The notes beneath the pieces were generated by a model, which was not told the DNA's origin, did no database searches, and saw only the letters and a list, made by a program, of their open reading frames with translations. From Pseudoclavibacter sp. RFBB5 (GTDB lineage Bacteria > Actinomycetota > Actinomycetes > Actinomycetales > Microbacteriaceae): a stretch of DNA of 64,000 bases. The translations under genes and the position numbers were made by a program. This document shows positions 35,948 through 49,301 of this stretch, in pieces. The stretch is from positions 186,001 through 250,000 of the forward strand of contig NZ_PSTZ01000011.1 of the NCBI RefSeq assembly GCF_002931555.1, given 5' to 3'. Within the stretch, counting starts at the first letter, position 1, and every line of letters starts with the position of its first letter.

Positions 35948-36991
35948 GTGCGTGACCTACGTAGCCGGAACCCCGCCACGGGCGACGGCAGCGACGAAGG
36001 ATTCCTCGTCCGTTGCGCCGCCATGGTCGAGGCCGTGGACGCGGCACAGGCGCGCGCGAACGCGATGCCCGGTCTCTGGGGCGGCGACCGCGCCTCGTCC
36101 TCGCGGCGGTCCAGCACGGGTACGCACAGCACGCGTGCTGTCCTCGATGCCCTCTGCCTCTACATGGCCCAGGCTGCACAGCTCACGGTCGAGGCTGACG
36201 TGCGCCGCATCTCCGCGGACACCGGGTATGGCCTCACCACCGTCCACGAGGCGCTGCGCCGCCTCGCGACGGCCGCTGACGAAGCCTCCCCGGAGTCAGC
36301 CTGGATCGTCCGCGAGGGAACCCCGGAGGGCGCCCACGCGCAGCGCTACCGCCTCTCTCGGAAGTTCTCCACAGGGACAGAGGCTGGTAATCGGACACAA
36401 GTGCGTGCACGCCCCGCGGCAGCCTCCCCCCTGCAGGCTCGAAGCCAGCACATCGCCCGGCTTGCGAAGAATCTCCAGACGCTCGCGCACGACACCTTCG
36501 CCGCTCCTCGCAGCTTGGGCCGCACCGCAGGACTCGTCTACAAACACGTCGATGAAGGCTCCGTGCTCACCGTCGACGAACTCACCCGCAGTACCGGCCT
36601 CGACGCCACCCGCACCCGGCAAGCCCTCCGTGCCCTCCATCTGCACGGCCTTCTGTCCCGGACCGAGCACGGCTGGACTAGGGAAGAAAACTGCGACGTT
36701 GATTCCGTGGCGCACGTTCTCAACGTCGCAGGGCATCTCGAAGTTCGTCGAGCGCGATACGCCGACGAGCGGCATTGTTGGGCGTGGTGGCAGGCAGAGG
36801 TGCAATGGATGTCGAGGCGCGGGAAACAACGCCGTCGACGCCGCTCCCCCACGGCCGCGCAGCTGCTCAGCGTCAGCGACCGGCCGGACTATCCGAGATA
36901 CCCCCGCAGCGAGGGTCGAGGCGACCACCGAACCGCGCTCGCCCTCGTGCGTGCTGGCACCGTCAACGCTCCAGCGCTGCGCGCCGCATGA
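35948..36991 (+). CDS. Winged-helix protein of plasmid/island type
   Basis: A 347-residue basic protein with two helix-turn-helix stretches, about residues 78-112 (E-A-D-V-R-R-I-S-A-D-T-G-Y-G-L-T-T-V-H) and 215-250 (D-E-L-T-R-S-T-G-L-D-A-T-R-T-R-Q-A-L). It resembles the DNA-binding tails of replication or primase-helper proteins on actinobacterial plasmids and integrative elements. The GTG at 35948 lacks a clear ribosome binding site, so the gene may be the remnant of a longer one. It is followed by the 5' fragment of the SRAP gene and marks accessory DNA. Confidence 0.6.
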   Translation: MRDLRSRNPATGDGSDEGFLVRCAAMVEAVDAAQARANAMPGLWGGDRASSSRRSSTGTHSTRAVLDALCLYMAQAAQLTVEADVRRISADTGYGLTTVHEALRRLATAADEASPESAWIVREGTPEGAHAQRYRLSRKFSTGTEAGNRTQVRARPAAASPLQARSQHIARLAKNLQTLAHDTFAAPRSLGRTAGLVYKHVDEGSVLTVDELTRSTGLDATRTRQALRALHLHGLLSRTEHGWTREENCDVDSVAHVLNVAGHLEVRRARYADERHCWAWWQAEVQWMSRRGKQRRRRRSPTAAQLLSVSDRPDYPRYPRSEGRGDHRTALALVRAGTVNAPALRAA

Positions 36992-37021
36992 ATCTCTCGA
37001 CCGAATCGAACTCCTGAGCTC

Positions 37022-37033
37022 TACGCTGACGAC
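37022..37033 (+). promoter_or_regulatory. Leaderless -10 of the interrupted SRAP gene
   Basis: TACGCT at 37022-37027 lies six bases before ATG 37034, the same spacing seen at other likely leaderless starts in this window. It supports 37034 as a true native start even though the coding region is now broken nine codons later. Confidence 0.5.
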
Positions 37034-37060
37034 ATGTGCGGCCGATACGTCATCGCGAAG
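37034..37060 (+). pseudogene. SRAP/HMCES-type (yedK) gene, 5' fragment
   Basis: Nine codons reading M-C-G-R-Y-V-I-A-K, the invariant N-terminus of the SRAP (YedK/HMCES) family. Its Cys2, freed by Met removal, forms the covalent thiazolidine with abasic sites in single-stranded DNA. After codon 9 the reading becomes unrelated (R-L-S-I-I-R-L-A-R) and enters the mobile element. The rest of the family sequence, starting S-S-D-L-L-F-E-F, resumes at about 45788. The gene is therefore split by an insertion of about 8.7 kb. Confidence 0.85.
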
Positions 37061-37065
37061 AGACT

Positions 37066-37077
37066 GAGCATTATTCG
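37066..37077 (+). repeat. Left terminal inverted repeat of the element
   Basis: GAGCATTATTCG, five bases inside the break in the SRAP gene. Its inverted partner is at 45767-45778. A looser third copy (GAGTATTACTTCCG read on the minus strand) lies immediately internal to the right repeat. Confidence 0.65.
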
Positions 37078-37258
37078 TCTCGCGCGTACCGCGGAACCGC
37101 AGGCTTTCGAGCCGGGCGCGCCACAACTCGAGCGGGGGGCTGGAAGGGTCGAGTCTCGAATCGAGCCGCTTGCGCTGAAATGGCGGCCGTTCGTGGGCGT
37201 ACTGGTGCGAAAAGTGTCCATCTGACCTGGGTGCCAGAGGTGCGGTCAGCTCTCACTC

Positions 37259-37284
37259 TTGCATCATTGTTGAATCTGATGCAA
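37259..37284. promoter_or_regulatory. Dyad upstream of the recombination genes
   Basis: TTGCATCA (37259-37266) and TGATGCAA (37277-37284) are perfect 8-bp arms with a 10-bp spacer, ending ten bases before the integrase GTG. It is a likely binding site for the small HTH protein of the module or for the recombinase. The other sequence between 37078 and 37258 is GC-rich with repeated TCGAG words and no gene. Confidence 0.55.
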
Positions 37285-37294
37285 CACTTGGCGG

Positions 37295-38401
37295 GTGAGC
37301 GAGCAGCGCAGTTCTCGTGGCTTCCCAGGCCGACTGGACGCCAATGTCGTGCCCCTAAATCAGGAACAATTTGTCCTTGACGGCATGCTGGCGGGCTGGG
37401 TTGACCAGCAAGTGAGTCGTGGGCTCGCTCCGTCAACGATCACCGCTCGCGTTGCGATGATCCGTCGCCTGCGTGAGTTCGCGGATGCGTACCCGTGGGC
37501 GTGGACGCCCGAGGACCTCGAAGCGTTCAGCGTGGAGCTGGCTTCGGGCGCGCGGCCCGTGACGAAATCGACACTGCGCGGATATCAGGTCGTCGTGCGC
37601 GCGTTCTGCGACTTCATCACCGACGCCCGCTACCCGTGGGCAGCCGAGTGCGTAGAGAGATTCGGGGAGCCTCCCGTCCAGATCTGCCACGAGTGGAACA
37701 CGCTCGCGCACATCGTCGAATACGAGGGGCGACCACAGCGACGAGCGTTGACGTACGACGAACTCGAGCTGTTCTTCACGGCCACAGATGAGCGAGTGGC
37801 GGCGATCCAGCGCGCTGGGCGAAAGGGAGCACTCTCTGCGTTGCGTGACGCCGTCCTCTTCAAGACCGTCTACGCCTTCGGGCTCCGCCGCAGCGAAGCA
37901 GCCGGTCTGGATCTGGCGGACGTGAGATCTAGCCCCGGAGTTTCGAGATTCGGAGAGTGCGGTGCCGTTTATGTGCGGTGGGGCAAGGCGTCTCGAGGCT
38001 CCGGGCCGAAGCGACGAACGGTACTGGCAGTCCCTGAGTTCGACTGGGCTGTCGAGGGGCTTCGGCAGTGGATCGAGGAGGATCGAGCACTCTATGGAGC
38101 TTCGCGCTCTGATGCCCTCTGGCTCACTGAGCGTGGAACTCGAGTGTCGTTGCGGTACCTCGATTTCCGTTTCGCCGAACTTCGAGACCACCTAGGACTG
38201 CCCCCAGAGCTGACCGTGCACGCGTTGCGACACTCGTACGTGACGAATCTGATCGAGTGGGGGTATGCCGAGCGCTTCGTGCAGGACCAGGTCGGGCATG
38301 CTTACGCGTCGACGACGGCGATCTACACCTCGGTCGGTGATGACTTCAAGAACCGCGTCCTCGCGAATGCCCTTCGACGGATCTATGGAGACGACTCATG
38401 A
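37295..38401 (+). CDS. Tyrosine recombinase (transposon integrase)
   Basis: A 368-residue tyrosine recombinase with an N-terminal SAM-like core-binding domain (about 25-125) and a C-terminal catalytic domain. All catalytic residues are visible: Arg198/199 in G-L-R-R-S-E, a Lys near 231, H309-x-x-R312-H in V-H-A-L-R-H-S, His335 in V-G-H-A-Y-A-S-T-T, and Tyr344. It should cut and join the ends of the element. GTG 37295 follows GGCGG; the next gene overlaps by four bases. In size it matches TnpA of Tn554 (about 361 residues). Confidence 0.85.
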   Translation: MSEQRSSRGFPGRLDANVVPLNQEQFVLDGMLAGWVDQQVSRGLAPSTITARVAMIRRLREFADAYPWAWTPEDLEAFSVELASGARPVTKSTLRGYQVVVRAFCDFITDARYPWAAECVERFGEPPVQICHEWNTLAHIVEYEGRPQRRALTYDELELFFTATDERVAAIQRAGRKGALSALRDAVLFKTVYAFGLRRSEAAGLDLADVRSSPGVSRFGECGAVYVRWGKASRGSGPKRRTVLAVPEFDWAVEGLRQWIEEDRALYGASRSDALWLTERGTRVSLRYLDFRFAELRDHLGLPPELTVHALRHSYVTNLIEWGYAERFVQDQVGHAYASTTAIYTSVGDDFKNRVLANALRRIYGDDS

Positions 38402-38736
38402 CCAGCCCCACCATCCAGTGGAACCTGCGCACGCTCATGGCGGCCAACAGCATGTTCCAGACCACGGACCTCATCGAGCCGTTGCGAGAGCACGGCGTCA
38501 ACCTGTCGCGGGAGCAGGTGTACCGCCTAGTGACAAAAGTTCCGGAGCGGCTCAACACGACTGTCCTCGTCGCGCTGTGTCACATCTTCGGATGCGCACC
38601 GAACGACCTCATCGAGATCCCGGACGCCGCGGCGGCACGGGAGCGAAGCGCAGTCAATGAACCTGCGACCTCGCCTGTGGTCCAGCGTGAGCTGAAGCCG
38701 GTGCCGGCTCGGATTCAGCGTCCGACCAAGGCGTAG
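38398..38736 (+). CDS. Small helix-turn-helix protein of the recombination module
   Basis: A 112-residue protein with a Cro/C1-like helix-turn-helix fold: L-M-A-A-N-S-M-F-Q-T-T-D-L, N-L-S-R-E-Q-V-Y-R-L-V and L-V-A-L-C-H-I-F-G-C-A-P-N-D-L. The last 35 residues are basic and Pro-rich. ATG 38398 overlaps the integrase stop, and the next gene follows by four bases, so the three are co-translated. By position and size it parallels the small TnpC of Tn554, which guides orientation and frequency of transposition. The sequence family is different, so equivalence is inference. Confidence 0.75.
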   Translation: MTSPTIQWNLRTLMAANSMFQTTDLIEPLREHGVNLSREQVYRLVTKVPERLNTTVLVALCHIFGCAPNDLIEIPDAAAARERSAVNEPATSPVVQRELKPVPARIQRPTKA

Positions 38737-38740
38737 AACC

Positions 38741-40171
38741 GTGGCAACGTGGGCGGATCGGTGCGACAACTGCCATCGAGACGTGATCAGCCGGTACCAG
38801 CTGCTCGGAGGCCGGATCTGCAACGCCTGCTACAGCGGGCTGCGCAGGAACCCTGCCCGATGCCCCGGTTGCGCGGAGATCCGCGTGCTGGCGCATCTCG
38901 ACAGCGGCGGGGCACGTGTATGTGCCGCCTGCGTGGGCCGTGTCGACCGCTTCGGTTGCAGGGACTGCGGTAGTCACCAGCAGCTGACCGGCTCGCAGTG
39001 CGGGAGTTGTCGACTCTCAGAACGACTGGCGAAGCTCCTCGACGATGGAACTGGCACTGTGCACGAGCGCCTGCAGCCGCTCAGTGACTATCTACTCGCG
39101 GTCAAGGATCCGCGGACCGCGGTGCGGTGGTTGAAGCGTGAATCTGTCGCAGACACCCTCCGAGGCATGGCGAAGGGGCAGCTCCCGGTCGCACACACGA
39201 CACTCGACGAGCTCCCGTTGAGTATGAAAACCCGCTACTTCCGTCGACTCCTCATCAGCGCAAACGTGCTCCCCGAGATCGATGTCTTCTTGAACGAGCT
39301 TGAGCTTGCGTTGGCGCGGTTCCTGACAACGATTCCTGAGGAGCATGCGCGCCTGATCCGTCGGTACCATCAGTGGCGCACGCTCCCTCGCCTACGACAG
39401 CGGGCCGAGCCCACATCGACGGGCGTATTCGCGAACCACATGCGAAACGTTCGCCTGATTGCTGCGTTCCTGGCATGGCTGCAGGAGCAGCATCTGCACC
39501 TCTCGACGATGGATCAGGCAGTCGTTGATCGCTACTTCGCCGCGGCGTCCAGCCGTGATGTGCTGGGGCAGTTCCTCACCTGGGCAGCGGGGTCTGGGCT
39601 GTGCACGAGAGTCGAGGTTCCGCGGGTACGCGGCGGGCCACCTCAGGCGGCCATGTCAGACGAAGCGCTGGCGGAACTCGCCGAGCGAGTGCTGGCGGAC
39701 GTGGCGTTGTCTCCTGTCGGGCGTCTCCTCGCGTTGTTCGCGATCGTCTACGCGCAACCCATCCGATCAAGCGTCGAGCTCCGCCTCGAGGCGGTGGAAC
39801 AGGACGAGGGACGAGTGTCGATCAGGTTCGCCGCGACCCGAGTCCACTTGCCAGCAACCATCGCCAAGCTCCTCCAGGAGCACCTCGAGCAGCTCGAAAC
39901 ACGCGGAAGCTACCACCCGATTGTGAATGAGTGGCTCTTCCCTGGGATCGTGCCAGGGCAGCATCTCGCTGCGGGAACGGGCATCGGCTTGCTCACGCGC
40001 GCGGGCCTGAGTGTGCGAGCACTTCGCACGTCCAGGCTCGTCCTGCTGTCACAGACCGTGCCGGCAAGGGTGCTCGCTGATGTGATTGGGATCAGCACGC
40101 AGACCGCGCATGCCCGGAGCATCGCTTCCGGCGGTACCTGGCAGAGCTACCCCGAGCTGCGCCGAGGCTGA
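38741..40171 (+). CDS. Zn-ribbon protein with degenerate tyrosine-recombinase fold
   Basis: A 476-residue protein. The first 90 residues hold six C-x-x-C pairs (8/11, 27/30, 41/44, 61/64, 73/76, 87/90), enough for three zinc ribbons. The remainder is helical and ends in a recombinase-like domain. It retains Y-A-Q-P-I-R-S-S-V-E-L-R (first Arg) and V-R-A-L-R-T-S-R-L (the HxxR box with His replaced by Arg). The GH and catalytic Tyr positions (I-G-I-S-T-Q-T-A-H-A-R) look altered. It is probably a catalytically weak DNA-binding partner of the active recombinase, like the second large recombinase of three-gene transposons. Confidence 0.65.
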   Translation: MATWADRCDNCHRDVISRYQLLGGRICNACYSGLRRNPARCPGCAEIRVLAHLDSGGARVCAACVGRVDRFGCRDCGSHQQLTGSQCGSCRLSERLAKLLDDGTGTVHERLQPLSDYLLAVKDPRTAVRWLKRESVADTLRGMAKGQLPVAHTTLDELPLSMKTRYFRRLLISANVLPEIDVFLNELELALARFLTTIPEEHARLIRRYHQWRTLPRLRQRAEPTSTGVFANHMRNVRLIAAFLAWLQEQHLHLSTMDQAVVDRYFAAASSRDVLGQFLTWAAGSGLCTRVEVPRVRGGPPQAAMSDEALAELAERVLADVALSPVGRLLALFAIVYAQPIRSSVELRLEAVEQDEGRVSIRFAATRVHLPATIAKLLQEHLEQLETRGSYHPIVNEWLFPGIVPGQHLAAGTGIGLLTRAGLSVRALRTSRLVLLSQTVPARVLADVIGISTQTAHARSIASGGTWQSYPELRRG

Positions 40172-40189
40172 GTAGCGCGTGCCGCTGCG

Positions 40190-40597
40190 TCAGAGGCGGC
40201 GGTGCAGGGCTTCGACGCGGGCGCGGATATCGTCACGAACGAGTCGCATGCGTTCCATACCTTCGATGCCGCGATCGGAGGGCTCGCCCGTGATCCACGT
40301 CTCGACCTCCACACCGGCAGTCTCCGGTGCGCGTGCTTCCGCGCCGAGCACGACGATGAGGTCAGCCGCGTCGATCATCTCCGGCGTGAGCTGCTTCGGG
40401 TACTCGTCTCCGACGCTCACGCCGATCTCGGCGAGCGAGTCCACGGATTGCTGGTTGAGGGCAGTGCCGGGCTTCGTGCCCGCGGACGTGACGTGCACCT
40501 CGGGGCCGGCCACGGAACGCAGGAGCGCTGCGGCCATCTGGGACTTGCCGCCGTTCTTCTGGCAGACGAACACGATGTTCGTGGGAGTGGCGGTCAT
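40190..40597 (-). CDS. ArsC-like low-molecular-weight phosphatase-fold protein
   Basis: A 135-residue protein of the arsenate-reductase/LMW-phosphatase fold. The P-loop reads F-V-C-Q-K-N-G-G-K-S, keeping Cys12 but with Lys18 where arsenate reductases have Arg. It also lacks the M-G-C-G-D-A-C-P loop seen in the two other ArsC proteins here. It may be a reductase with altered chemistry, or a non-catalytic sensor. ATG 40597 overlaps the arsR stop (ATGA), so it is co-expressed with the repressor on the minus strand. Confidence 0.7.
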   Translation of the reverse strand: MTATPTNIVFVCQKNGGKSQMAAALLRSVAGPEVHVTSAGTKPGTALNQQSVDSLAEIGVSVGDEYPKQLTPEMIDAADLIVVLGAEARAPETAGVEVETWITGEPSDRGIEGMERMRLVRDDIRARVEALHRRL

Positions 40598-40965
40598 CTG
40601 GTCACTCCGGTGAGCTCGTTGCTGGTGAGGAGGGCGGCGAGCGAGTCGAGCGCGCCAGGGACGAGACTGAAGTAGGCCCACGAGCCGCGCTTCTCGCGGG
40701 AGAGGATGCCCGCCTCGACCAGGATCTTCAGGTGGTGGGAGACGGTGGGCTGCCCAAGCCCGAGCGGCTCCGTGAGGTCGCACGCGCACGCCTCCGCCTT
40801 CTCCTGCGCCGCGATCATCGAGATGAGCCGCAACCGGGCCGGGTCCGCGATGACTTTGAGGGTTCTGGCCAGCTTCTCGGCGTTCTCCGCGGAGATCGCC
40901 TCGTCGGTGAGGGGCTCGCAGCAGGCGGTCACGTCGGTGAGCGGCAGGAGTTGCGTGAACGACAT
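40594..40965 (-). CDS. arsR: Arsenite-responsive repressor ArsR
   Basis: A 123-residue ArsR/SmtB-family repressor with a winged helix at about residues 27-105 (L-G-Q-P-T-V-S-H-H-L-K-I-L). Candidate As(III) ligands are Cys15, Cys16 (T-A-C-C-E-P) and Cys60/62 (E-A-C-A-C-D). This N-terminal C-C plus central Cys arrangement recalls the Corynebacterium CgArsR type rather than E. coli ArsR. Start ATG 40965 follows GGAGGA. It is divergent from acr3; the shared 100-bp gap holds inverted and direct repeats it probably binds. Confidence 0.9.
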   Translation of the reverse strand: MSFTQLLPLTDVTACCEPLTDEAISAENAEKLARTLKVIADPARLRLISMIAAQEKAEACACDLTEPLGLGQPTVSHHLKILVEAGILSREKRGSWAYFSLVPGALDSLAALLTSNELTGVTR

Positions 40966-40985
40966 CTGAACGTCCTCCAAGGAAA

Positions 40986-41052
40986 TTGACAGTCATCGAT
41001 ACCCTAGCCATACTCGTATCGATCCGCATCAATATCGACCGAGATCAATATC
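40986..41052. promoter_or_regulatory. Divergent ars promoter and ArsR operators
   Basis: On the plus strand TTGACA (40986-40991), a 17-base spacer and CATACT (41009-41014) form a promoter for acr3. Overlapping it are perfect 8-bp arms ATCGATAC (40995-41002) and GTATCGAT (41016-41023). Then come two direct copies of ATCAATATC (41028-41036, 41044-41052). These AT-rich ATCxAT words are typical of ArsR sites; occupancy would block both directions. Confidence 0.7.
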
Positions 41053-41065
41053 TCTCTGGAGCTTC

Positions 41066-42160
41066 ATGACTGCTGTCACCCCACCCGTCAAGCTCGGCAC
41101 CACAGATCGGTTCCTGCCGGTCTGGATCATCGCGGCCATGGCCCTCGGCCTCGCTCTCGCGGTGTTCGTCCCCGCCGTCGGGGAAGCGCTGCACGCGTTC
41201 GAGATCGGCTCGGTGAGCGTCCCGATCGCCATCGGGTTGCTGGTGATGATGTACCCGGTGCTCGCGAAGGTCCGCTACTCGGATGCCCGAGCGGTCGCGG
41301 GGGACCGGAAGCTGCTGATCTCCTCGCTCGTCATGAACTGGCTCGTGGGACCCGCCCTCATGTTCGCCCTCGCCTGGCTGCTGCTGCCGGATCTGCCCGA
41401 GTACCGCACCGGGCTCATCATCGTGGGGCTTGCTCGCTGCATCGCGATGGTGTTGATCTGGAACGACCTCGCCTGCGGGGACCGGGAGGCGGCCGCGTTC
41501 CTCGTGGCTGTGAACTCCGTGTTCCAGGTCATCATGTTCGGGGCGCTCGGCTGGTTCTACCTGCAGCTGCTCCCATCCTGGCTGGGCCTGCCCACGACCA
41601 GCGCGGACTTCTCGTTCTGGGCGATCACGATCAGCGTGCTCGTGTTCCTCGGCATCCCGCTGCTCGCCGGCTACCTGTCCCGCCGCATCGGGGAGTCGGC
41701 GAAGGGCCGCGACTGGTACGAGTCGCGGTTCCTACCCAAGGTCGGGCCGTTCGCGCTCTACGGGCTGCTGTTCACGATCGTCATGCTCTTCGCGCTCCAG
41801 GGGCAGCAGGTCATCGACCGCCCCTGGGACGTCGCCCGCATCGCCCTGCCGCTGCTCATCTACTTCGCCGTCACGTTCCTCCTCGGCTTCGGGCTCGGGA
41901 AGCTCGTGGGGCTCGGTTACGAGCGCACCACGACGCTCGCGTTCACCGCAGCGGGCAACAACTTCGAGCTCGCCATCGCCGTCGCCATCGGCACCTTCGG
42001 CGCGACCAGCGGCCAGGCCCTCGCAGGCATCGTCGGCCCGCTGATCGAGGTGCCCGTGCTGGTCGCCCTCGTCTACGTCGCGCTCTGGCTACGCCCACGA
42101 CTCTTCCCCGCCGCCACAGCCACCCCGGCACCCGCTGCATCGTCGACCACCCTCGTCTGA
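41066..42160 (+). CDS. acr3: Arsenite efflux transporter Acr3
   Basis: A 364-residue arsenite permease of the ACR3 (BART) family, about ten membrane segments. The essential residues of the family are present: Cys125 in A-R-C-I-A-M-V-L-I-W-N and Glu301 in T-A-A-G-N-N-F-E-L-A. It expels As(III) and possibly Sb(III) using the proton motive force. It is first in a rightward operon of five genes and would export the arsenite made by the reductases that follow. The operon is controlled by the divergent ArsR. Confidence 0.95.
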   Translation: MTAVTPPVKLGTTDRFLPVWIIAAMALGLALAVFVPAVGEALHAFEIGSVSVPIAIGLLVMMYPVLAKVRYSDARAVAGDRKLLISSLVMNWLVGPALMFALAWLLLPDLPEYRTGLIIVGLARCIAMVLIWNDLACGDREAAAFLVAVNSVFQVIMFGALGWFYLQLLPSWLGLPTTSADFSFWAITISVLVFLGIPLLAGYLSRRIGESAKGRDWYESRFLPKVGPFALYGLLFTIVMLFALQGQQVIDRPWDVARIALPLLIYFAVTFLLGFGLGKLVGLGYERTTTLAFTAAGNNFELAIAVAIGTFGATSGQALAGIVGPLIEVPVLVALVYVALWLRPRLFPAATATPAPAASSTTLV

Positions 42161-42193
42161 CCCCGCTCCACCCACCTCTTCGAAAGGCCCCTG

Positions 42194-42604
42194 ATGTCCA
42201 CGAAACCTTCCGTGCTCTTCGTCTGCGTCCACAACGCTGGCCGCTCCCAGATGGCCGCCGGCTACCTCACCGCCCTCGCAGCTGGGCGTATCGAGGTGCT
42301 CTCCGCGGGGAGCGAGCCGAAAGACCAGATCAACCCCGTCGCCGTCGAGGCCATGGCCGAGGAGGGCATCGACATCGCCGGCAACACCCCGAAGGTGCTC
42401 ACCACGGAAGCCGTCCAGGCCTCCGACGTCGTGATCACCATGGGCTGCGGCGATGCCTGCCCCTTCTTCCCCGGCAAGCGCTACGAGGACTGGAAGCTCG
42501 ACGACCCCGCGGGGCAGGGCATCGAGGCCGTGCGCCCCATCCGCGACGACATCAAGCAGCGCGTCGAAGCGCTCATCGCCGATCTGCTTCCCGAGAAGGC
42601 GTAA
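42194..42604 (+). CDS. arsC: Arsenate reductase ArsC (LMW-phosphatase fold)
   Basis: A 136-residue arsenate reductase. The P-loop is V-C-V-H-N-A-G-R-S with Cys11 and Arg17, followed by [18 protein letters not shown]. This pattern is found in both thioredoxin- and mycothiol-linked ArsC proteins of actinobacteria. It reduces arsenate to arsenite for export by Acr3. Spacing to the next gene is six bases, so it is operonic. Confidence 0.92.
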   Translation: MSTKPSVLFVCVHNAGRSQMAAGYLTALAAGRIEVLSAGSEPKDQINPVAVEAMAEEGIDIAGNTPKVLTTEAVQASDVVITMGCGDACPFFPGKRYEDWKLDDPAGQGIEAVRPIRDDIKQRVEALIADLLPEKA

Positions 42605-42610
42605 CCGACC

Positions 42611-43291
42611 ATGACCGATCTCAGCCAGCGCCGGGGACTGCCCGGCCTCGCCTACCCCGAAGCCTCCCTCCAGCGCCTCGCGGGCGAGCTGGCCGAGCAG
42701 TTCACCGGCATCTTCACTCCCGAAACCGTCGAACGGTACGTGCTCGAGTCCTACGCGGCCCTGCTGCGCACCTCCACCGTCAAAGCGCACCTGGTCACCA
42801 ACACGACGAGGTTCGCGAAAGACCGCCTCACCGCGCTCGCCCAAGCCAAGGGCGACATCGCCCGCCCCGTGCCGGAAATCCTGTTCCTGTGCGAGCAGAA
42901 CGCTGGCCGCTCGCAGATGGCCGCGGTCCTCACCCAGGCGCTGGCAGGTGACCAGGTGCACGTGCGCTCCGCGGGTTCCGCACCCGCGAAGACGCTCCAC
43001 CCGGAAGCGGTCGACGCGATGGCGGAGCTCGGCCTCGACCTCGGCCAGGAGTTCCCGAAGCCCCTCACCGACGATGTCGTGCAGGCCGCGGACGTCGTCA
43101 TCACGATGGGCTGCGGCGACGCCTGCCCCGTCTACCCGGGCAAGCAGTACCAGGACTGGAACCTCACCGATCCGTCCGGACTGGGTGCCGACGAGGTGCG
43201 GGTGATCCGCGAGCAGCTCCACACGCACGTCACCGAGCTGCTCGCGAGCCTCGGTGTCTCCCCCATCGCGCTCGAAGGCTCCCGCGCGTGA
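42611..43291 (+). CDS. Arsenate reductase with N-terminal helical domain
   Basis: A 226-residue protein: residues 1-85 form a three-helix domain (with [12 protein letters not shown]), and residues 88-222 are an ArsC domain. The latter has P-loop [10 protein letters not shown] (Cys94, Arg100) and [12 protein letters not shown]. The same helical domain precedes some corynebacterial ArsC1'-type reductases and the phosphatase-like part of other actinobacterial proteins. It probably gives a second arsenate reductase with a different electron donor. It overlaps the next gene by four bases. Confidence 0.88.
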
Positions 43292-44295
43292 GCGTCGAGA
43301 ACGTCGAGAACGTCGAGAACGTCATCGTCGTCGGCTCCGGCCCTGCCGGGTACACGGCTGCGATCTACCTGGCCCGCGCCGGCCTCTCCCCGGTGCTGCT
43401 CACCAGCGCTGTGGAAGCGGGTGGAGCGCTCGTGAACACCACGGAGGTCGAGAATTTCCCGGGCTTCCCGACCGGCGTCCTCGGCCCCGACCTGATGGAG
43501 AACATGCGCCAGCAGGCGGAGCGGTTCGGGACGCGCATCGTCGTCGACGACGCCACGGAGTTGCAGCTCGAGGGTCCGGTCAAGACCGTTGAAACCGGCT
43601 ACTCGGGCACGTTCGAGGCGCACGCCGTGGTGCTCGCCATGGGGTCCGCGTACCGGAAGCTCGGTGTTCCGGGTGAGGAGCGGTTGACCGGGCACGGGGT
43701 GTCCTGGTGTGCGACGTGTGACGGGTTCTTCTTCAAGGGTCAAGATATTGCCGTCGTCGGGGGCGGGGACTCCGCATTGGAGGAGGCGATGTTTCTGACT
43801 CGCTTCGCGAACAGCGTCACCCTCATCCACCGCCGCGATTCGCTGCGCGCCTCGAAGATCATGCAGAATCGTGCGTTCGCGAACCCCCGCATCACCGTGC
43901 GCTGGGACTCGGAGGTGCTCGAAGCGGTCGGCACTGATCACCTCGAATCGTTGCGCCTGCGCGACACGGTCACGGGTGAGCTCGACGAGCTGCCCGCGAC
44001 GGGGCTGTTCATCGCCGTTGGGCACGACCCCCGCAGCGAGCTCGTCGATGGGCAGGTCGATGTCGACGAGAACCGGTACGTGCGCGTGAGCGCACCCACC
44101 ACCCACACCTCTCTCCCGGGGGTGTTCGCGGCAGGCGACCTGGTCGACTTCCGGTATCGGCAGGCGATCACCGCTGCGGGCACCGGCTGCGCCGCAGCCC
44201 AAGACGCGGAGCACTACCTCGCCTCCGCGGGCCTCGCCACCTACCCGCAGGCCGTCACCGCGCAACTCGACGCGGCCGCCACACCCGTCCGCTAG
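43288..44295 (+). CDS. Thioredoxin-reductase-like flavoprotein
   Basis: A 335-residue FAD/NADPH oxidoreductase of the low-molecular-weight thioredoxin reductase family. FAD motif [10 protein letters not shown], redox pair W-C-A-T-C-D-G (Cys141/Cys144) and NADPH motif G-G-G-D-S-A-L-E-E are all present. It likely recycles the thiol donor for the arsenate reductases encoded upstream. GTG 43288 overlaps the preceding stop. Residues 3-11 are three V-E-N units encoded by a perfect 9-bp tandem repeat, which may vary in number. Confidence 0.9.
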
Positions 44296-44309
44296 ACCAG
44301 GAGTCACCC

Positions 44310-45692
44310 ATGAGCACCTCCTCATCCCTCACCCCAGCATCGACCACCGGGCTCGACGCGTTGCCGGTCGCGATCATCGGCGCGGGGCCAATCGGCCTCG
44401 CCGCCGCCGCGCAGCTGCTGGAGCGAGGGCAGGAGGTGGTCGTGTTCGAGGCGGGAGACCAGGCTGGAGCCTCTGTCGCAGCGTGGGGACACACGCGCTT
44501 GTTCTCACCGTGGGAGTACCTCGTCGACGAAGCCGCCGCGCGCCTCCTGGATGAGGCCGACTGGAACGCACCACCCGCCAAAACCCTCCCCACCGGGCAG
44601 CAGCTCGTCGACGACTATCTCCTGCCGCTCGCCACAGCCCCCGCCCTCGCGGACGGCATCCGCTACGGGCACCGGGTGCTCGCCGTCACGCGCCGCGGCA
44701 TGGACCGCACCCGCACACGCGGACGCGAACGCGCCCCCTTCGTGCTCCGCACCGAATCCGCCGCCGGAGTGACCGAAACGCTCGCTCGTGCCGTGATCGA
44801 CGCGTCCGGCACGTACGAGACGAGCAACGCCATCGGCTCCAGCGGCCTCGAGCCCATTGGCGCAGACCAGGTGCGCGAGCACCTCAGCCACGCCCTGCCC
44901 GACGTGCTCGGACGCGACCGTGCCCAGTTCGCCGGGAAACGAGTCCTCGTCGTCGGTGCCGGCCACTCCGCCGCGAACACCCTGCTGAAGCTCGCCTCTC
45001 TCGCCAAGCGGGAACCTGCCACACAGATCTTCTGGGCCATTCGGGGCGTGCAGCCCGCCCGCGTGTACGGGTCCGCCAATGACGAGCTCGCCGCGCGAGG
45101 CGAACTCGGCGGGGCCACCCGAGCGCTCGTGACCTCCGGGCAGGTCCAGCTCCTCGACCAGTTCGAGATCGATGCTCTCGCCCCCGCGGAGGATGGCGGC
45201 GTACGAGTTACCGGGCTTCGCGCGGGAGTCGCCGCATCCGTGGACGTCGACGTGATCGTGAATGCGACCGGGTTCCGCCCCAACCTCGACCTGCTGCGCG
45301 AACTCCGACTTGACCTCGACACCGTCGTGGAAGCACCCCGAGCGCTCGCACCGCTGATCGACCCGAACGCGCACTCTTGCGGCACCGTCTACCCACACGG
45401 CGTGGACGAGCTCACGCACCCAGAACCCGGCTTCTACATAGCCGGCATGAAGAGCTACGGCCGCGCCCCCACTTTCCTGCTCCTCACCGGGTACGAGCAA
45501 GTGCGATCCATCGCGGACGAGCTCGCCGGACACCACGAGCAAGCGCGCCTCGTCACCCTCGTCCTCCCGGAAACCGGCGTGTGCTCGACCGGCACGCCTG
45601 AGGAGAGCGACGGCGTGAGCTGCGGGGTACCCGAGCCAATCAACGCTGGCCGGCAGGCAGCAGCAGTGTCAGCGTCTGGCTGCTGCGCCTAA
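44310..45692 (+). CDS. FAD-dependent oxidoreductase of the ars operon
   Basis: A 460-residue flavoprotein with an N-terminal FAD motif (I-I-G-A-G-P-I-G-L-A-A-A near residue 23) and a second dinucleotide motif (V-V-G-A-G-H-S-A-A-N-T-L near 213), like flavin monooxygenases and the ArsO-type proteins found in ars clusters. The last 40 residues add four Cys (V-C-S-T-G, V-S-C-G and S-G-C-C-A at the end), a possible As(III)- or thiol-binding tail. It is the last cargo gene and ends 75 bases before the right repeat. The reaction is not established. Confidence 0.75.
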   Translation: MSTSSSLTPASTTGLDALPVAIIGAGPIGLAAAAQLLERGQEVVVFEAGDQAGASVAAWGHTRLFSPWEYLVDEAAARLLDEADWNAPPAKTLPTGQQLVDDYLLPLATAPALADGIRYGHRVLAVTRRGMDRTRTRGRERAPFVLRTESAAGVTETLARAVIDASGTYETSNAIGSSGLEPIGADQVREHLSHALPDVLGRDRAQFAGKRVLVVGAGHSAANTLLKLASLAKREPATQIFWAIRGVQPARVYGSANDELAARGELGGATRALVTSGQVQLLDQFEIDALAPAEDGGVRVTGLRAGVAASVDVDVIVNATGFRPNLDLLRELRLDLDTVVEAPRALAPLIDPNAHSCGTVYPHGVDELTHPEPGFYIAGMKSYGRAPTFLLLTGYEQVRSIADELAGHHEQARLVTLVLPETGVCSTGTPEESDGVSCGVPEPINAGRQAAAVSASGCCA

Positions 45693-45766
45693 CCGGAAAC
45701 CGTGTGCGACGTGCAGCAGGCGCAGGATCCGCGGACTTGGTCCTCGCGAGCGGAAGTAATACTCAC

Positions 45767-45778
45767 CGAATATTGCTC
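45767..45778 (-). repeat. Right terminal inverted repeat of the element
   Basis: CGAATATTGCTC, the inverted partner of 37066-37077 (11 of 12 positions). Nine bases separate it from the point at 45788 where SRAP codons resume. Confidence 0.65.
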
Positions 45779-45787
45779 GGTACCAGT

Positions 45788-46441
45788 ACCAGCAGCGACC
45801 TCCTGTTCGAGTTCGACGCGGGCGGTGAGTTCCAGTGGGAGCCCGCCTACAGCATCGCGCCCACGAACTCCGCGCCGATCCTGCGCCAGCACGAGGGCGA
45901 GCGTGAGTTTGAGATTGCAAAGTGGGGGTTTCGGCCGTCCTGGGCGAAGGCCGGCGGCCCGCCCCGCATCAACGCTCGACTGGAGACCGTGGCGACCAAC
46001 GGCCTGTTTCGTGGCGCGTTCGCGGGGAGCCGCTGCATCGTGCCGATGAGCGGCTACTACGAGTGGGAAGAAGTGGAAGACGGCAAGCAGCCGTACTTCA
46101 TCTCCTCCCGCGCAACCGTGCTGGCCGCAGCAGGGCTGCAAGCCGCGTACAAGGACGAGAACGACGAGTGGCGCTCAACGTTCACGATCATCACCCGCGA
46201 AGCCAAGGACGCCTCTGGGGAGATCCACGACCGTATGCCCGTGTTCCTCGAACCGGAGATGTTCGACCGGTGGATCAGCGCCGAGAAGATCGAGCACAAG
46301 GACGCGATGCTGCACGAGCTCGACGAGACGTCGGCGGCCGTGGCCGCGACGATCACCACGCGTCCGGTTTCTCGAGCCGTGAACAACGTCCGGAAGCTCG
46401 ACCGCACCGATGCCAGCCTCATCGAACCCATCACGCTCTAG
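45788..46441 (+). pseudogene. SRAP/HMCES-type (yedK) gene, 3' fragment
   Basis: About 218 codons that match SRAP family proteins from residue 10 on. N-I-A-P-T-like S-I-A-P-T-N, W-G-F-R-P-S-W, I-N-A-R-L-E-T (active-site Asn), Y-Y-E-W (Glu) and I-H-D-R-M-P-V (His) are all intact. What is missing is M-C-G-R-Y at the start, which lies at 37034. An in-frame GTG at 45704 could start a chimeric protein through the element's end, but it would lack Cys2 and so could not form the DNA-protein crosslink. Reading frame is undamaged, so precise excision would restore the gene. Confidence 0.85.
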
Positions 46442-46459
46442 CGGTTGCCGGGCGACGTC

Positions 46460-46726
46460 GTGAGCGAGGCGGTGCGGGTTTACACAACCGGGGAGCGCTG
46501 CGTGCGCTGCAAGCTCACCAAGAAGGCCATGGCCGCCAAAGGGGTCGAGTTCGTCGAGGTGGACGTCACCCTGGACGAGAACGCGGCAGCACGCAGCTAC
46601 ATCATGGACGAGCTCGGGTACTCGGAAGCGCCGGTCGTGGTCGTCGACGACGAGGACCACTGGTCAGGGTTCCGGCCCGACCAGATCAACCGCCTCGCAA
46701 AACGGGTGTCCGCTCACGTCCCGTGA
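46460..46726 (+). CDS. NrdH-like glutaredoxin
   Basis: An 88-residue thioredoxin-fold redoxin. It has R-V-Y-T-T-G-E-R-C-V-R-C-K-L-T-K with a C-x-x-C at about residues 15-18, and S-E-A-P-V-V-V-V and W-S-G-F-R-P-D-Q-I motifs like NrdH-redoxins. It would transfer electrons to ribonucleotide reductase or other targets. It lies directly after the SRAP gene, and the same SRAP-NrdH order is, as I recall, common on actinobacterial plasmids and islands. The start is uncertain between GTG 46460 and TTG 46445. Confidence 0.75.
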   Translation: MSEAVRVYTTGERCVRCKLTKKAMAAKGVEFVEVDVTLDENAAARSYIMDELGYSEAPVVVVDDEDHWSGFRPDQINRLAKRVSAHVP

Positions 46727-47427: not shown

Positions 47428-49301
47428 TAGGACACCTCGGCCGTGTTCAGATCAAGGATGTTTCGCAGTTCGCGGTCGGGAAGCGCGGCGAGGGCGGTTG
47501 TAGGGTCGCCGGTGATCGTGTCGGCGATTCCTTGTTTCTCGTGGTGCATTCTGTCGATGTGGTCTTCGATGGTGCCCTCGGTGATGAGGGTGTGCACAGT
47601 GAGGGTCTGTGTCTGACCTATTCGGTGCGCTCGCGCTGTCGCTTGTTCCTCCACGGCGGGGTTCCACCATCGATCGAAGTGCAGGACGTGTGATGCTCGG
47701 GTCAGGTTCAAGCCGAACCCCGCAGCGCGGAGGCTGAGGACCAGGATTGGTGGAGAGTCATCGTCTTCCTGGAAAGCGCGGACAAGTTCGTCGCGACGTG
47801 CTGCGGAGAGTCCGCCATGCAGGAAGGGAATCCTGGTTTTCTGGATCGCCTGTTCGAGGCCGGTCGAGAGGAGATCGCCCATCGCTCGATACTGAGTGAA
47901 GACGAGGGCGCGTTCTCCGTCGTCGACGATCTCCGCGAGCATCTCCATCGCACGGTCGTACTTTCCGGACCGTCCTGGTTCTGCCGTCGATGCTCCCTGG
48001 TATTGAGCAGGGTGGTTACAGATTTGTTTGAGGGCTGTGATGAGCGCGAGCACTCGGCCGCTGCGCCCTATTCCTGAGCCGAGGCCGTCGTTCGTGAACG
48101 CTTGGTCGACGGTTCTGCGATAGAGCGCTATTTGCTCATTGGTGAGTGTGCAGACGACGGTGCTGTCCAGTCGCGGGGGGAGCTCAGTGGCGACTTGGGC
48201 TTTGGTGCGACGAAGCATGTGCGGTTGTACGAGCTTGCTCAGTGTTGTCGCTGCGGTCGTTGATCGGCGTTGTTGGATGGGAGCTACGAAGCGCTGCCGG
48301 AATCGTGCGCGCGGTCCCAGCAGGGCGGGATTGGTCACTGAGAAGATGGACCATAGTTCGTCTAGGTTGTTCTCCACGGGCGTGCCGGTCATGGCAATCC
48401 TGCACGTGGACTTGAGCTGCAGGGCGGCTCGTGTGACTTCAGCCGTTGGGTTTTTGAGTTGCTGCGCTTCGTCGAAGATGACCACGTCCCACTCCGTGCT
48501 GTTCACGGCAGGGTCAGAGCGCAGGAGCGGATAGCTCGTGATCACGACGGTTCCGGGTGCGAATGACGCCGGTAGGTGTCGGTCGGTGCCGTGGTATCTC
48601 AGGACGGGAGTGGTGGGCGAGAACCGCTGAATTTCGCGCCGCCAGTTGCCGATGAGGGATGTGGGGCACACAACAAGGTGCGGTGTGGCGGATCGACGGG
48701 TGGCCAGGACACTGATCGATTGGAGCGTCTTTCCCAACCCCATCTCGTCCGCCAGTATCGCCCCCGCGCCGAGCTGCGCCCGATCACGCAACCATGCAAC
48801 CCCGTAGTTTTGATAGGGGCGGAGGTCGGCTTGAATGACTCCGCTGCGAAGCAGTCGGGACGATGAGACTGCAAGTCGAAAGGCATGCAGCAGGACGGCG
48901 GGCGCCATGATCGAGGTTTCGTCGGCATCGAGGATTGCGTGGCCCGCCGGAGGGATTTGCTCAACGAGCCGCCCCCATCCGGCAGAGGGCTCTTCATGCA
49001 GGGTGATACGACTCGCTTCCTTCCAAGCGAGTACCGACTGCTCGAAGTGCCTGTACGAGTCGATGTCATCCAGGGTGCGCGCGGCTTCGGCCACGTCGGT
49101 GAGGACCACGGCGACGTCTTTAGCGACGACTGAGGCCCCATCCGGGATAGCGAGGCGGATGCTCGCGGCCCGGCCGACGAGGTTCGTGGCCTCGACGAGC
49201 GCTGACGCGACGTCGCTTGGGCCCCACCACGCGATCGCATTCTCTGACGGAACGAACGTGGCCTGTAGCGGAATTGGGGCTGCGGTGGGCAGGGGGATCA
49301 T
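47427..49301 (-). CDS. SNF2-family DEAD/DEAH helicase-like ATPase
   Basis: A 624-residue SNF2 ATPase. Walker A is A-D-E-M-G-L-G-K-T near residue 190, the Walker B box is V-I-F-D-E-A-Q-Q, with S-A-type G-T-P-V-E-N and, in the second lobe, F-L-H-G-G-L and R-A-H-R-I-G-Q. It is shorter at the N-terminus than HelZ-like proteins of about 1,000 residues. It remodels DNA-protein complexes using ATP. It is coupled to the SWIM gene; no DISARM or other defence partner is visible nearby. Confidence 0.88.
   Translation of the reverse strand: MIPLPTAAPIPLQATFVPSENAIAWWGPSDVASALVEATNLVGRAASIRLAIPDGASVVAKDVAVVLTDVAEAARTLDDIDSYRHFEQSVLAWKEASRITLHEEPSAGWGRLVEQIPPAGHAILDADETSIMAPAVLLHAFRLAVSSSRLLRSGVIQADLRPYQNYGVAWLRDRAQLGAGAILADEMGLGKTLQSISVLATRRSATPHLVVCPTSLIGNWRREIQRFSPTTPVLRYHGTDRHLPASFAPGTVVITSYPLLRSDPAVNSTEWDVVIFDEAQQLKNPTAEVTRAALQLKSTCRIAMTGTPVENNLDELWSIFSVTNPALLGPRARFRQRFVAPIQQRRSTTAATTLSKLVQPHMLRRTKAQVATELPPRLDSTVVCTLTNEQIALYRRTVDQAFTNDGLGSGIGRSGRVLALITALKQICNHPAQYQGASTAEPGRSGKYDRAMEMLAEIVDDGERALVFTQYRAMGDLLSTGLEQAIQKTRIPFLHGGLSAARRDELVRAFQEDDDSPPILVLSLRAAGFGLNLTRASHVLHFDRWWNPAVEEQATARAHRIGQTQTLTVHTLITEGTIEDHIDRMHHEKQGIADTITGDPTTALAALPDRELRNILDLNTAEVS

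Follow-up and report, generated by a model that had tools for sequence, protein, structure and literature searches.

Evidence for a tyrosine-recombinase transposon with a preferred landing site at the start of SRAP genes

In Pseudoclavibacter sp. RFBB5, a gene for an SRAP protein lies in two pieces with recombination and arsenic-resistance genes between them, and the locus raises the question of whether this intervening DNA is an element that selects the start of SRAP genes. The DNA analyzed here (the window) is a stretch of 64,000 nucleotides (G000:C17:186001-250000) from a genome of 3.77 Mb in 19 contigs. An original prediction, made from the window alone, had proposed an arsenic-resistance element that splits the gene after codon 9 and targets the conserved 5′ end of SRAP genes. 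The answer that we consider very probable is a site-specific tyrosine-recombinase transposon whose preferred landing site is the SRAP start, where it sits in a fixed orientation between bases 28 and 29, beside the codons for M-C-G-R-F/Y.

In the window, an insert of about 8.7 kb (37062-45788) separates SRAP bases 28 and 29. The peptide MCGRYVIAK, encoded at 37034-37060, was confirmed as the SRAP start, and the SRAP frame does resume at about 45788, as had been claimed; the split itself is real, whereas its position needs correction, since the break follows base 28, the first base of codon 10. The presence of recombination genes and an ars operon with inverted ends between the two SRAP halves was borne out by open frames, Pfam, NCBIfam and the reading of the repeats. 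The features that define the split are as follows.

37034..37061, + strand: SRAP 5′ fragment, bases 1-28 (MCGRYVIAK plus the first base of codon 10), delimited by the empty site in P. helvolus
37062..37077, + strand: left inverted repeat, GACTGAGCATTATTCG; also the left end of the copies in P. terrae and P. helvolus
45767..45782, + strand: right inverted repeat, CGAATATTGCTCGGTA, from comparison of copies and junction reading
45783..45788, + strand: CCAGTA, the six bases by which the right end is offset; 14 of 16 right ends read CCRRYA
45789..46441, + strand: SRAP remainder from base 29, without Cys2; Pfam SRAP (PF02586), E = 7e-54

The Pfam match of the remainder begins at profile position 16. 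Counted by eye, GACTGAGCATTATTCG and CGAATATTGCTCGGTA match at 13 of 16 bases as an imperfect inverted repeat. Sequence comparison with contig C12 of Pseudoclavibacter helvolus (G002) revealed the neighbourhood of the window joined, with nothing between the flanks: bases 390-1501 of the P. helvolus locus correspond to window positions 35951-37061 (89.5% identity) and bases 1501-2407 to positions 45788-46693 (92.1% identity). Because P. helvolus has the same flanks joined without the insert, both chance and an assembly artefact are argued against. The intact SRAP genes at empty sites that the prediction had called for in relatives are represented by this joined locus and by uninterrupted SRAP genes in Brachybacterium.

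To place the window among its relatives, we compared loci carrying the same three recombination genes (tnpA, orf2 and orf3, hereafter the trio), taken from a genome scan with a tnpA alignment (the best 80 of 178 relatives, L075-L154) and from plasmids (L071-L074, the four top-ranking among 223 records that matched orf3), and SRAP bodies near the trios were found with a hidden Markov model (HMM) that we built from SRAP proteins. The clade set contains 26 loci, 21 of them with a readable junction. Fifteen of the 21 lie at the same SRAP base and in the same orientation (window, L071, L072, L073, L077, L078, L079, L082, L084, L085, L087, L088, L090, L092 and L096), and ten of these have both junctions (window, L072, L073, L077, L078, L079, L085, L087, L088 and L096). 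According to the HMM, an SRAP body without the N-terminus lies 3′ of the trio on the same strand in the window, L071, L072, L073, L077, L079, L082, L085, L087, L090 and L096, while an SRAP 5′ fragment followed by the left end of the element was read in L072, L078, L079, L084, L085, L087, L092, L096, L077 and L088, and in L073 through the extended record L249. The remainders of the window, L072, L077 and L090 were assigned to SRAP by Pfam PF02586 and the others by our HMM. The 5′ fragments start with MCGR, except that of L077, which reads MCAS; that of L088 begins with TTG. The target SRAP proteins mostly share 26-57% pairwise identity, for some pairs over short stretches, the high-identity pairs being L072/L096 (90%) and L079/L087 (78%). 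Other insertions thus show the junction that the prediction had hoped to see again, all 15 SRAP cases agreeing in base and strand; targeting of the SRAP 5′ end holds as a recurrent, base-exact pattern in 15 of 21 loci, but not for the 6 of 21 that lie elsewhere.

The ends are equally regular. All 14 left junctions that we read consist of 28 target bases, six further bases and a GCATTATT-like sequence, and at the right junctions the repeat is followed by six bases and then by SRAP base 29. Scripted joining of the flanks at ten loci gave a continuous SRAP N-terminus in nine, the tenth being the non-SRAP site L086; in seven of the nine the body follows, while in L078 and L088 it decays after about 20 residues. 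For L073/L249 the flanks were joined by eye, and the SRAP body of L072 ends early, at 184 residues. Sequence comparison indicates insertion without target duplication and with a 6-bp asymmetry at the ends. At the level of sequence, then, the absence of a target duplication, the fixed orientation, the repeated use of one base position in divergent SRAP genes, the uninterrupted sites and the 6-bp right offset can all be regarded as established. The same base, one orientation and uninterrupted sites are what define a site-specific integrative element, and they were found here, the 6 of 21 readable loci being the exceptions.

The right-end 6-mer reads CCRRYA in 14 of 16 cases and ACGTAC in L072 and L096. 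In the elements called SEs, the last donor site leaves a 6-bp copy of itself as a footprint; we judged this less likely here, given that CCRRYA is constant in 14 of 16 right ends and rare at SRAP bases 23-28, where the pattern occurs in 7 of 199 relatives' genomes and in none of nine occupied left ends counted. An inherited right-end 6-mer would fit these comparisons better than a donor-copied one. Ten of the 16 right ends contain an ATG in the reading frame of the SRAP remainder, 16 or 19 bases 5′ of the junction; the window has TTG (45773). The annotated SRAP start of L071 is this ATG of the element, which shares one base with the stop codon of orf3.

Occupied and uninterrupted SRAP genes occur side by side in Brachybacterium. 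We searched 38 genomes for SRAP relatives of L079 and read 20 loci, followed by three more copies. Among the first 20, the right end of the element lies at base 28/29 in seven (L215, which is L079's own site, L216, L218, L219, L220, L228 and L229), 12 are uninterrupted and L234 is ambiguous; of the three further copies, L246 is occupied and L245 and L247 are uninterrupted. Altogether 8 of 23 SRAP genes are occupied, 14 uninterrupted and one ambiguous. Upstream DNA was taken for six of the eight occupied sites. Trio genes, in pieces, lie upstream at L244 (for L216) and L242 (for L220). Both ends and a restorable SRAP join, with no trio between, were found at L240 (for L218) and L241 (for L219), and since both ends are present at SRAP without a trio, these two look like possible non-autonomous forms. 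No trio was found in the stretch read at L243 (for L229) and at L246. The SRAP genes of L245 and L247 read ATTTGCGG and ATCTGCGG, against ATGTGCGG in the others, so the Cys may not be residue 2 there.

The tnpA tree comprises 84 rows, 68 of them distinct, and leaves out L071, whose tnpA is cut by an insertion sequence. All SRAP insertions fall into one clade of 22 rows (support 100/100), with 14 rows labelled SRAP, three SRAP-like, one other and four unlabelled by site, and the SRAP label is absent from the 46 remaining tree rows. In the DNA fetched for the 59 scan loci outside the clade, no SRAP was detected near the recombinases with the HMM; many of these contigs are short, and the decayed remnant of L088 also escaped the model. 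A 13-mer like CACACCTCTTGCA occurs instead in 26 of 59 outside-clade loci (61 loci scanned, L094-L154), just upstream of tnpA in 25 of the 26 and, in the copies compared, about nine variable bases before constant element sequence, with surrounding flanks that otherwise differ. The confinement of SRAP to one clade and the CACACCTCTTGCA-like 13-mer beside outside-clade elements suggest that target choice differs by clade. We sought the right ends and the target of the sister-clade elements and did not find them.

Several observations weigh against SRAP targeting. The genome scan, at 80 of 178 relatives, is a limited sample. Five of the 26 clade loci (L080, L081, L083, L089 and L091) have no readable junction, and six of the 21 readable ones (L074, L075, L076, L086, L093 and L103) are not at SRAP. 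L072 and L096, with 90%-identical SRAP proteins and the same right end, may not be independent insertions. The uninterrupted SRAP gene of P. helvolus (L003, G002:C12, around base 48019) reads ATGCGC, with Arg replacing Cys2. The two closest copies are also among the exceptions. In a scan of 398 Microbacteriaceae genomes, identity above 90% was seen only in three Pseudoclavibacter genomes. The P. terrae copy (L076) is about 91% identical and has its right junction within a response-regulator-like frame; the P. helvolus copy (L075), also about 91% identical, contains about 5 kb of other DNA and lies at a non-SRAP site, between kdpB sequence on the left and the beginning of a TetR-like gene on the right (names by reading). 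As these two flanks lie about 4 kb apart in G000, the P. helvolus insertion site has been rearranged. Both copies speak against exclusive SRAP targeting. In both, orf3 is broken. An empty site for the P. terrae insertion was sought and none was found. From these two copies alone, SRAP had looked like a coincidence, a view that fell once SRAP was found adjoining the trios of L071-L073 and then in the genome scan.

The exceptions were therefore scored for resemblance to the SRAP start, with a position matrix from 14 SRAP sites applied to the 28 bases before the left end, against a background of 2,557,448 positions that includes true SRAP starts. The background fraction scoring as high is 4.7e-6 for L086, 1.7e-5 for L093, 3.9e-5 for L076 (P. 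terrae), 5.0e-5 for L103 and 5.2e-4 for L074; the MCAS-type SRAP of L077 itself scores 4.1e-3. Five of the six non-SRAP sites thus resemble the SRAP start in register, and the P. terrae site has CGCTTCGCGATG in the register of the L084 SRAP codons R-F-A-M. L075 (P. helvolus), at 0.56, has no such resemblance, a further point against targeting. The left ends of L074, L075, L076, L086 and L093 were placed by end motif or copy comparison, without SRAP resemblance, and that of L103 came from a pattern that includes part of it. Trio copies at unrelated sequences had been named as what would refute the prediction; taken literally, 6 of 21 loci, including the two closest copies, are such copies, yet five of these six are SRAP-like in register.

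The proteins of the trio bear on what kind of element this is.

37295..38401, + strand: tnpA, tyrosine recombinase, 368 aa, GTG start; Pfam Phage_integrase, 1.4e-20
38398..38736, + strand: orf2, small Cro/C1-type helix-turn-helix (HTH) protein, 112 aa; Pfam HTH_26, 2.3e-12
38741..40171, + strand: orf3, 476 aa, GTG start; cysteine-rich N-terminal part and tyrosine-recombinase fold (AlphaFold2, Foldseek)

The tnpA alignment has invariant R, H-x-L-R-H, G-H and Y columns. For orf3, no family match was found in Pfam, NCBIfam or PHROG. An alignment of 26 sequences shows nine invariant Cys within its first 90 residues, and its AlphaFold2 model (pLDDT 87.7, pTM 0.69) matched the tyrosine recombinases XerH, lambda Int, XerA and Cre in Foldseek, with a best E of 4.2e-6 (XerH) and query TM-scores of only about 0.2-0.4. 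No catalytic set of tyrosine recombinases was recognised in orf3 when the alignment was inspected by eye. By this reading, orf3 appears to be a zinc-finger protein with a recombinase fold and without a visible catalytic set.

Tn554 inserts into radC, and the target here is SRAP. The insert might be one of the Tn554-family elements known from Actinobacteria, with another target, but we consider this unlikely. As described in PMC10214605 and PMC3414803, such elements have a module of three adjacent recombination genes, one of them for a tyrosine recombinase of about 350 aa, are specific for their target, duplicate no target bases and show a 6-bp asymmetry; the Tn554 family (TnpA, TnpB and TnpC) and its actinobacterial relatives (PMC3414803) also have imperfect inverted ends and carry resistance genes. 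The 6-bp asymmetry and the lack of duplication were found here as well. However, those elements pair a short and a long recombinase (611-828 aa) with a TnpC-like protein, whereas the trio has one Phage_integrase hit, an HTH_26 protein and the 476-aa recombinase-fold orf3, and no Tn554-named model was among the NCBIfam hits of the trio. The two were set apart by these descriptions.

Other known systems come close in different ways. SEs share a recombinase-fold helper without the catalytic set (Tfp), a small accessory protein, imperfect inverted repeats of 13-19 bp and the 6-bp end asymmetry; their four core genes (intA, tfp, intB and srap) and two catalytic recombinases contrast with three trio genes and one catalytic recombinase here, and SEs are reported only from Gammaproteobacteria and renew the 6-bp footprint from the left flank, whereas the right-end 6-mers here look inherited. 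The auxiliary SE protein called Srap does not take its name from the SRAP domain. GInts, as described in PMC5385486 and PMC10214605, likewise integrate site-specifically as islands, vary in cargo and combine a small accessory protein with a dead recombinase-like one (GinC), but are set apart by that description through four genes (ginABCD), two catalytic recombinases and direct imperfect repeats at the flanks. RIT (recombinase in trio) elements also have three adjacent genes between terminal inverted repeats, with a catalytic tyrosine in all three proteins according to PMC10214605, whereas here it was recognised in one, orf2 being an HTH_26 protein and orf3 lacking a recognised catalytic set. 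Given the site-specific tyrosine recombination, the inverted repeats, the 6-bp asymmetry and the recombinase-fold helper, the module would by analogy work like SE, GInt and Tn554-type elements, yet it differs from each in gene content. A wider reading makes it one branch of an undescribed transposon superfamily (active tyrosine recombinase, HTH protein and a zinc-finger dead recombinase that reads the target), in which each branch would have a fixed address (the SRAP start; CACACCTCTTGCA) and the right end would give an in-frame start to a Cys2-less SRAP that cuts abasic sites; this we regard as quite improbable.

Two explanations without SRAP targeting fare worse. If the SRAP halves were a split passenger gene travelling with the element, their adjacency would stem from common descent; SRAP pieces do flank many clade members, and the Agromyces element L078 carries an SRAP gene inside its left end. 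The flanking SRAP genes nevertheless diverge widely (mostly 26-57% identity), L074 and L092 have nearly identical tnpA in the tree and occupy different sites, and the finding of the window flanks joined without the element in P. helvolus contradicts the idea, which makes it very improbable. Low-specificity insertion, with SRAP over-represented as plasmid-borne or duplicated copies are dispensable, might draw on the 6 of 21 readable loci outside SRAP and on the second SRAP gene of the window genome, and is just as hard to credit, since dispensability would spread insertions along the gene, whereas all 15 SRAP cases share base and strand, no other base or orientation was seen in the loci read, and five of the six other sites resemble the SRAP start in register.

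For the site-specific transposon that we favour, the trio would move the element through a circle, and strand exchange by the recombinase would span six bases, with SRAP bases 23-28 as the left spacer and the element's CCRRYA as the right one, in the manner of SE and Tn554-type elements. Target choice may read roughly SRAP bases 2-20, perhaps via the zinc-finger, recombinase-fold orf3. Insertion takes Cys2 from the gene product, and cross-linking by that copy should stop; cargo such as ars is exchangeable. We found no description of SRAP as an insertion site, or of such an arsenic transposon, in the openly licensed PMC literature, the one hit there being on E. coli. The catalytic start of a gene that shields abasic sites would join the known landing sites of tyrosine-recombinase transposons, and the spread of metal resistance in Actinobacteria would be tied to SRAP copies being interrupted again and again. 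With occupied, uninterrupted and look-alike sites at hand, target recognition can be tested directly, and a module of one active recombinase, an HTH protein and a zinc-finger recombinase-fold protein without a visible catalytic set offers a simple system for asking what the helper does.

As for the host gene, PMC9436759 reports that YedK without the Cys2 thiol forms no cross-links and acts as a lyase. The predicted disabling of abasic-site protection would apply at most to this copy, whose remainder lacks Cys2; as the source genome keeps a second SRAP gene (36% identity, starting MCGRY), the cell as a whole need not have lost that protection. The SRAP remainder looks decayed in L072, L073, L078, L082 and L088.

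The cargo of the window element is as follows.

40190..40597, - strand: arsenate-reductase-like gene, start estimated from the open frame; resembles the other two ArsC genes by reading
40594..40980, - strand: ArsR-type regulator, named by sequence reading; homologue in the L088 cargo (53% identity)
41066..42160, + strand: acr3, arsenite efflux transporter; NCBIfam TIGR00832, 1.1e-128
42194..42604, + strand: arsC; NCBIfam TIGR02689, 1.3e-31, below the family cut-off
42611..43291, + strand: arsC with an N-terminal three-helix domain; NCBIfam TIGR02689, 1.8e-19, below the cut-off
43288..44295, + strand: trxB, thioredoxin-disulfide reductase; NCBIfam TIGR01292, 8.4e-112
44310..45692, + strand: flavin-dependent oxidoreductase, ArsO-like; Pfam Pyr_redox_3, 8e-13; ArsO model 6.7e-14, far below the cut-off

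Ten loci were compared for cargo. Arsenic resistance, which the prediction had made a property of the element, holds for the window, L073, L077 and L088, which carry ars genes, but not for the others, which have different cargo or little beyond the trio: as judged from ten proteins compared with Pfam, L085 has a P-type ATPase, L079 has ZnuA and a subunit of ribonucleotide reductase, L087 a sulfate permease and L084 a flavin reductase, and the L072 element is only 3.5 kb and mostly trio. The Agromyces italicus element L078 has its own SRAP-like gene (L078:7325-7957), which starts MCASYG (Pfam SRAP, 1.7e-15) and lies about 70 bp inside the left end, beside the SRAP gene that the element interrupts. 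Contig C12 of P. helvolus (L067:13351-18007 and L070) carries a 92%-identical ars operon, separated from the uninterrupted SRAP gene by about 2.4 kb, and also a sister-type recombinase.

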